This document shows, one piece after another, positions 43,101-46,100 of a stretch of 64,000 nt of DNA. Positions within the stretch are counted from its first letter, which is position 1. Each line of letters begins with the position of its first letter. Both the position numbers and the translations under genes were made by a program. Source of the stretch: Telopea speciosissima (Eukaryota; Streptophyta; Magnoliopsida; Proteales; Proteaceae); assembly GCF_018873765.1 (NCBI RefSeq), contig NC_057923.1:60010593-60074592 (forward strand), given 5' to 3'. Below the pieces are notes generated by a model, which saw only the letters and a program-made list of their open reading frames with translations, had not been told where the DNA came from and did no database searches.

Positions 43101-46100
43101 GGCCTGTAGTTTACTAATGGAGAAAAAATATGCCAATGGCCTATATATTTTTTTAAGCAACAAAGAATACTCGGGGTATGTTACTATAGCATATAGGAGA
43201 ATTTAATTACATATTCTCTGTAACAAACCAGGATCTGTAACCAATACCTGCAAAGTAGAAGAGAAAGCCAAACCCACGATAGGTTCAACTAACCCCCTAT
43301 TGTGCACTGGGTAAGAGAGCAGAGAAGAGAGAGCAGTGGCAAGAGCCTCATGCACTGGGTACACGCTTTTTTTATGCAAAATTAAAGTCAGACACTGAGT
43401 AGGTTACAAGACCCGCACACACACAACTTAATCTAACTAGACTCCAACTAGTAAAACTAAAGATGACCAAACATATCACAACAGGGACACTCCCCTATCG
43501 TGACTAAACCCAGTACATATCTTAACATTCCCTAATGGAATGGTTTATGCAAGGCATGATGGGAGTGAAAGGAATAATAACTTCACCACTTTTATCCCCA
43601 GTAAAATAATATAATAGTGGGGAAGGAGGGGAAAAAGAGAGTACAGAAAATAGGGGAGATCTCTTCAAGCAACCCCAACAAAGAAAACTGGTGCAAAAAT
43701 GCCTGGAGGGGCGAAAATGTTTCACGGCTCAACCCCAAAACATCAAAGTAGAATGCCCCAAGTCATTACAAAGACCAGATGCAGCATAAGAATGTAAGCA
43801 AACACAAACATATTACTAGCTTCCATATTCTAATGCTGGTTTCTTATACTCCAAATTAACAAGGAGCAGCAGTTGAGTTATGTGCTACCTGAAATTGGGA
43901 TAAATCTTGTGACATGAGGCACCCCCATGTCAGCCCACCAAAGAATCAACCAACAAAAACCTGCATGGTATTTTCAGGTTCATATTGCAACTTTTAACCT
44001 AAATAATACATAGGTTGGATTCAAATTGAGCATTTTCTGACAAAGAGAGTCTTATTCTGGTCTGATCAACATCCATCCCTAATTCATAGTTCAAGAACTC
44101 GCCGAAATCTTGGTAAAATCTCGGTTTTTTCAAAAATCGAGACGAGAATGAAGGCGAAATGGAGAAATACAATGTGTCGGCCGAGATCTCGGTGGGAAAC
44201 CTTGGTATACAGACACTTATTTATACCAAAAACCAGGACAGACACTTATGCCAAAAACCAAGACAAACACTTATTTATGCCTAATATCATTTAAGTAAAT
44301 GTTTTTATATTTGTTATTTCATTTACCTAAGATATTAAAAAAAATCATAAATTAGCAAATACCCCCCTATTTGAATCCAATAAAAATAGTTAAAAATCAA
44401 ATTCCAAAAGGATAAAAAGTCAATCCCCAAGAAAAAAAAACTAGATTTTCGGCGGTAGGTGCAATTTTCAACTCTCTAATGCTGGGGTTTTTCTCAAATC
44501 TAAAAATTCCATATATCTTAATATGGAAAAACACTGTTAAAAACCAAAAGTGCGGTAAATTACTGTTTTGTTTTGATGTCCAAAAAATAAGTTCCATTCA
44601 GAACGATTTTGGCAGCATTCGCGCATTTTAAAAGCTTTCCAACAAGTCCTAGAGTGCTTAAATCTGATTTATATTGAAGGAGTTATGTACCGGTCAAACT
44701 TAATTTGGTGTGCGCGAATGCTACCAAAATCGAAAAAAAGAAATCAAAACAAATGAATATTTTACTGCACTTTTGGATTTTAGCAATGTTTTACCATATT
44801 AAGATTTACCGAATTTTTAGATTTGAGAAAAACCCCAACATTAGAAATTTGAAAATTGCACTTACTGCCGAAAATCCAGTTTTTGTTTTTGAACTATGGT
44901 GGGGGGGGGGTTGACATTTTATCCTTTTGGAATTTGATTTTTTTAACTATTTTTATTGGATTCAAATAGGGGGTATTTTCTTATTTATGAATAATATCTG
45001 AAGTAAAAAAACATTTACTTAAATGATATTAGGCATAAATAAGTGTTTGTCCTGGTATTTGACATAAGTGTCTATCCTGGACTCTTGGTTTCCCACTAAG
45101 TCAAACTCCTATTTGGACTTTGATTTTACACTCAAACTCTGATAGTGCCATTGTATTTAAATGGCCCAAAATAAGCTGTATACCAACTTTCATGACCAAA
45201 CTAGGTTAAAAACCCTCTGAAATTCACCCAAAAAAATCCACCAAAACCATCAACCGAGTTCAAAAACAAAAAAATTTGCCAAACTGGTCGAGATCTCGGT
45301 CAACTCGGTTTTTTGGCCGGGCGAAACCAAGTTCTCGAACTATGCCCTAATTTATCTTTCATTCCAAATGGCAGGAAGGAAAAATATAAGTATTCTTTTC
45401 AAGATTGCCACCAAAAAGCAAAAGTAAGGGTAAAATAAGCAAATATTTTGCTCAGAGAAATTACGCCACATCATGTTTTTTCAGTGATCCAAGCACTGGA
45501 AAATCACAGAAGCTCAATAATGGATCAGAGATCCCATTGCAGAATCCCAGAAGACTTAAGAATGCATATAAGAAGGTTTGTTCAGTAGAAAGAGCAGTGG
45601 TATGGAAACTACCTATAGTTAGTAGCAAAGAGAAGAAACTGCTTAATTTAAATTGCAACACCAGGCAACAATTGTAACAGTATAGGCAATAATTAATATG
45701 TATACAAGTACAAAATGACATAACAATAAAGTATGTCTTGTTTAATTTAAACACCAACACTAGGATCTATATATATAATTTGGACCCATCAGTCCACCAA
45801 AAAGACAAGCATTGTAACTAAAAGCAAGAAAAAAGAACTTTCAATTTGCATCTTAACTCACCTATCTTGCATTGCTTTAGATGCCTTCAGTTGGTCCCTT
45901 CGGACAAGTAAATGCACATGACGAGCATACTTCGTAAGATATAATGCTTCCTCAGTTGCTGTATCACCTCCTCCAACTACAGCAAGAACTTGCCCCTTAA
46001 ACAGTGGTGATGCTCCATCACAAATTGCACAAGCACTAATTCCTCTACTCCAAAATTCATGTTCACGAGGTAAACTGAGCCTTTTTGCAGTAGCTCCTGT

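Follow-up and report, generated by a model that had tools for sequence, protein, structure and literature searches.

A long hairpin in an intron of NTRC is a decayed member of a large family of foldback transposons in waratah

The hairpin and its host intron

The hairpin lies in an intron of the NTRC gene, which is encoded on the minus strand of the window (the whole 64-kb stretch of DNA that was analysed). The thioredoxin-reductase exons of the gene matched Pyr_redox_2 in all three exon frames scanned (Table 1). A sixth-exon frame was assigned by its motif, and the thioredoxin part with CGPC (32850-33182) scored 19.9 bits against the Pfam thioredoxin family, under the cut-off of 23.5. The sequence-only reading that drew attention to this locus had placed the hairpin in intron 4 of NTRC, an intron of about 3 kb, and this location was borne out, with the numbering as intron 4 depending on an exon 1 read by eye. 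That reading also called NTRC essential, a description that the literature does not support: in PMC10297434, the Arabidopsis mutant without NTRC is described as viable, pale and growth-retarded.

Other repeats are found in and around the gene. The later NTRC introns contain a 61-nt inverted pair (38980-39039 and 40248-40308, 91.8%) that, by eye, we take to be tRNA-derived and SINE-like, and a fragment near 35390-35440 resembles it. Upstream of NTRC, an open frame on the minus strand (50291-50695) matched RVT_1 with 33.4 bits and appears to be a LINE-like remnant. The second-best inverted pair of the window joins 54674-54825 to 56230-56399, with 170 columns at 72%.

Table 1. Features of the foldback element and of the surrounding part of NTRC (positions in the window).
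Feature	Position	Strand	Remarks
Left target site duplication CCCTAATT	44077-44084	.	identical to 45345-45352
Entire foldback element (non-autonomous; 1,260 bp)	44085-45344	+	
Left terminal inverted repeat CATAGTTCAAGAACTCG	44085-44101	+	
Foldback core, left arm	44233-44625	+	
Loop, 85 nt	44626-44710	.	
Foldback core, right arm	44711-45080	-	
One-sided 140-bp stretch adjoining the core	45085-45224	+	also in relatives
Right terminal inverted repeat	45328-45344	-	minus strand reads CATAGTTCGAGAACTTG
Right target site duplication CCCTAATT	45345-45352	.	identical to 44077-44084
NTRC sixth-exon frame	39670-39873	-	assigned via motif EWRQAI; no match in Pfam
NTRC exon 5, begins VFNNPN	42607-42886	-	Pyr_redox_2, E 5.4e-14; end placed by eye
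NTRC intron 4, GT...AG, 2,975 bp	42887-45861	-	bounded by splice sites
NTRC exon 4, ends SKAMQD-R	45862-46127	-	Pyr_redox_2, E 9e-15; start placed by eye

The foldback is real and is not a product of chance. Aligned to each other, the two arms of the core, each of about 390 nt, scored 629 bits, with 74.8% identity across 907 gapped columns. Among inverted pairs of the window at most 5 kb apart, the runner-up reached 98.7 bits, and the best in 100 dinucleotide shuffles of the element reached 41 bits. The predicted fold energy of the NTRC sense strand was -583 kcal/mol; 30 shuffled versions of the same strand averaged -269 (sd 8.3). On the plus strand it was -542 kcal/mol, and 47 other plus-strand tiles of the window averaged -319, with none below -399. 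Based on these energies and on the bit scores of the inverted pairs, a chance hairpin was ruled out, and the long foldback of the sequence-only reading, with arms of about 400 bases and a loop of about 85, stands.

Two parts of that description need to be qualified. Close pairing was found in the larger ungapped blocks of the arms, which are 87-95% complementary, with the innermost arms 85 nt apart; over the core as a whole the pairing is interrupted, and the longest helices without a break measure 50, 37, 28, 23, 22 and 21 bp. The exact 8-bp duplication that was said to bound the hairpin is present on both sides, but the core arms stop short of it, with some 150 bp of the element outside them on its left side and some 265 bp on its right. 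The duplication therefore belongs to the whole element and not to the hairpin. The bounds of the element were set by the duplication, by the starts of the left-end matches, and by relatives with like ends. Since 517 nt separate the element from the donor of intron 4, and 1,198 nt separate it from its acceptor, no splice site is covered.

A genome-wide family with shared ends

The hairpin is one decayed copy of an abundant, non-coding family of foldback transposons. We searched the genome (822.9 Mb in 1,287 contigs, of which C1 to C11 are 57-88 Mb each, with the window on C8) using the element as the query and found 132 matches in the 40 regions that were scored of 5,001 first-look candidates. 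These 40 regions (L001-L008 and L039-L070), one of them the window's own, make up the family set, and together they are spread over C1 to C11. Arms on both strands were present in 35 of the 40 regions, and in 31 both arms were at least 250 bp. The 140-bp one-sided stretch was carried by 28 of these 31 copies, in a single orientation per copy, and was separated from the core in L044 and L048.

The members of the family have ends and target site duplications in common. Similar ends 0.9-1.7 kb apart and flanked by exact 8-bp repeats were found in 17 of the 40 regions, the window copy included, compared to 1 of 1,698 in a shifted-flank control. Flank repeats of 5, 6, 7, 9, 10, 11 or 12 bp were each found in none of the 40. 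The remaining 23 regions lack an exact 8-bp pair, through decay, truncation or other ends. The elements in the 17 regions are 1,015-1,561 bp, within the 900-1,700 bp range that was searched. The end motif used for this count and its controls was a loosened version, and the loosening admitted L042 and L043; at a stricter motif score of 15 the count was still 17 of 40, with 1 of 300 in the shifted control. At a laxer threshold and with one mismatch allowed, 30 of 70 loci had the end pair, and chance may account for part of these. The 17-base motif CATRGTTCRAGAACTCG itself has 1,159 exact sites in the genome and none when reversed, a number that does not equal the number of elements because the ends vary. 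The left-end matches began at the first base of the element in 28 of 41 cases (own copy included). A single-copy regulatory structure is ruled out by the 39 other regions and the 1,159 end motifs. In a topic search of open papers, no title or opening of an abstract described this foldback family.

Two further sets of loci were noted. A second group (L021, at 1474-2868, with L035, L036 and L038) has the same ends and a common interior; L021, the one member examined, lacked both a foldback core and hAT-like coding. L014 (367-3091) and L017 (380-3099), on different contigs, are 93.6% alike over 2.7 kb, a likeness that extends beyond the element itself and thus indicates a larger duplication.

The flank repeats and the shared end motif are what characterises a non-autonomous transposon of the hAT type. 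An 8-bp target duplication is a hallmark of hAT elements, and it was found here both at the window copy and in the 17 regions, together with short terminal inverted repeats that are family-wide (the 1,159 sites of the end motif). Of the features expected of a MITE, the family has terminal inverted repeats, high copy number, and no coding capacity (judged by eye in the relatives). At 1,260 bp, the element exceeds the limit of 800 bp that belongs to a stricter usage quoted in PMC12595863, a paper that sets no limit of its own.

A foldback of another superfamily, such as a Mutator-type element, is quite unlikely. Foldback elements do occur in Mutator-like families, and no transposase could be linked to the ends of the family described here. 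Against this, Mutator target duplications are mostly 9-11 bp, and all 17 exact flank repeats were 8 bp, with none of 5-7 or 9-12 bp among the 40 regions. We favor the hAT-type reading: with a probability of roughly 0.87, the hairpin belongs to a non-autonomous, non-coding hAT-type transposon, inserted long ago and carried since as a neutral passenger of the intron.

The hAT partner of the family may be extinct. hAT domains are common in the genome (150 scored of 1,799 candidates), and in a small sample none was linked to the ends of the family. We looked at six loci from three hAT families. In each of two families, one locus (L072, 601-5464, and L074, 111-5559, for families of 4.9 and 5.4 kb, respectively) had TAGGGGTGTCAA ends and an exact 8-bp duplication; no ends were found at the other four loci, the third family among them. 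The sibling pairs of L072 and L074 are about 95% alike over their longest match, and these two families are thus probably younger than the foldback family. Single motifs up to 16/17 like the family ends are present inside four hAT loci (L071-L074), and we take them for chance because the motif is so loose. In the first 63 Mb of C1, the 16 places with a hAT domain all lay more than 6 kb from any of the 100 listed end motifs, the nearest at 27 kb. None of the longest open frames of L001-L038 was hAT-like by eye, and tblastn of the frames of the six hAT loci against L001-L070 gave one weak match (L020, 44 residues, E 1.1e-6). L021, a longer relative with a second end-like motif 1,395 bp away, was considered as an autonomous partner and was rejected: it has no hAT match and no foldback, and its flanks mismatch.

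Decay of the arms and the regulatory readings

The arms of the NTRC copy have drifted apart. Among the 31 copies whose arms both reach 250 bp or more, the divergence between arms (K80) ranged from 0.031 to 0.149, with a mean of 0.091; at 0.146, the NTRC copy is the second most diverged. For the 28 copies that could be oriented, distances between copies were 0.096 for left arms, 0.091 for right arms, and 0.095 for left against right, and the distance within copies was 0.083. The likeness of the three between-copy distances indicates that the source was a near-perfect palindrome while it was spreading and that the arms have drifted since. Later homogenisation within copies may have occurred to some extent.

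Each arm of the NTRC copy drifted from the family consensus alone. Relative to a consensus of the other copies, there were 22 changes in the left arm and 24 in the right. Between the two arms, 39 of 331 sites differ, and 3 changes are common to both (1.6 expected by chance). This independent drift gives no sign of compensatory changes or of pairing kept by selection, and nothing points to maintained pairing in this copy. Many other copies had shared changes above expectation, up to 8, which we read as subfamilies or old homogenisation. Transitions at CpG were more frequent than at other C/G positions across all 31 copies (12.2% vs 7.3%); the corresponding values for the NTRC copy, 8.3% vs 6.6%, come from only 24 CpG cells.

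A working cis-regulator of NTRC is unlikely; the sequence-only reading had raised such a role as a possibility, with the hairpin as a Dicer substrate or a brake on splicing. Such a role would require that the NTRC pre-mRNA folds, that a DICER-LIKE enzyme cuts it into 21-24-nt RNAs, and that the intron is methylated or slowed, so that NTRC is tuned. The predicted paired runs of 50, 37 and 28 bp are in its favor, as is the statement of a review (PMC12595863) that, of 634 inverted repeats at most 3 kb from a gene in Arabidopsis, about 486 yield 24-nt siRNAs. Because inverted repeats near plant genes often yield 24-nt siRNAs, some dicing is plausible. Methylation of this copy is possible as well. 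On the other side are the independent drift of arms that are among the most diverged of the 31 copies, the distance of the element from both the donor and the acceptor, and the outcome of an Rfam search of intron 4, in which no known RNA family matched at E values up to 1. As judged from the sequence, a regulatory role of the hairpin for NTRC is unsupported, because the element belongs to a many-copy family, its arms decayed independently, it covers no splice site, and it has no Rfam match. The core could pair in the transcript and be diced to some degree, and there is no sign of selection keeping that.

The hairpin might also act in trans. NTRC is a leaf gene with steady transcription, which makes it conceivable that the intronic copy is a built-in source of hairpin RNA, and that siRNAs from it help silence the rest of the foldback family, as Mu killer does for MuDR. 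Of the 1,240 21-mers in the element, 411 are found exactly in other copies, and each of the 39 other regions holds at least one; the control values were 0 of 1,170 and 0 of 489 for the intron flanks and 10 of 1,231 for the stretch 46150-47400. With exact 21-mers common to all 39 other regions, siRNAs could act in trans, and for Mu killer itself, PMC3440606 proposes that transcription reads through into it from a gene alongside. We nonetheless consider this silencing highly improbable: the other measured copies are likewise foldbacks, so the NTRC copy is not special, and it is among the worst paired of the 31. The independent decay of its arms speaks against selection for either dicing or silencing in trans.

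The preferred reading, a hAT-type passenger, suggests a history that would account for the observed ends, duplications, family, shared foldback and decay. In a source element, an inner stretch would have been duplicated head to head, giving a near-perfect palindrome. A transposase, probably of the hAT type and acting in trans, would have recognised these short termini and left an 8-bp duplication at every insertion site, and copies would have spread across all eleven large contigs. One would have come to lie in the present intron 4 of NTRC, where it decayed as a neutral passenger, presumably removed with the intron by normal splicing.

Relation to known elements and meaning

The family and the NTRC copy can be compared with three related systems. 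In plant foldback elements such as FARE and SoFT, long inverted repeats in the interior let most of the element fold. The family described here has long internal inverted repeats as well; the known plant elements of this kind generally have other ends or other duplication lengths. Mu killer of maize is reportedly a single rearranged locus that silences MuDR. Like the NTRC copy, it is a transposon-derived inverted duplication within or next to a transcribed gene, as portrayed in PMC3440606; unlike it, the family has many foldback copies, and any silencing by them is hypothetical. Plant non-autonomous hAT elements and hAT MITEs are described in PMC12550479 and PMC12595863 as non-coding, with short terminal inverted repeats and high copy number, and as present in introns. 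The family resembles them in its short terminal inverted repeats, lack of coding capacity, high copy number, intron site, and 8-bp duplication, and differs in its size (1.0-1.6 kb where exact duplications flank the element, in the 17 regions) and in its long internal palindrome.

What appeared to be a striking single hairpin is thus one member of a large family of foldback transposons in waratah, and the element is most likely of little consequence for NTRC. If siRNAs from the NTRC copy did help silence the family after all, the control of transposons would be tied to a chloroplast housekeeping gene. The family is a useful natural set of hairpins that differ in age and in how well they pair, presumably both inside and outside transcribed genes; it could serve to relate dicing and methylation to how completely the arms pair.
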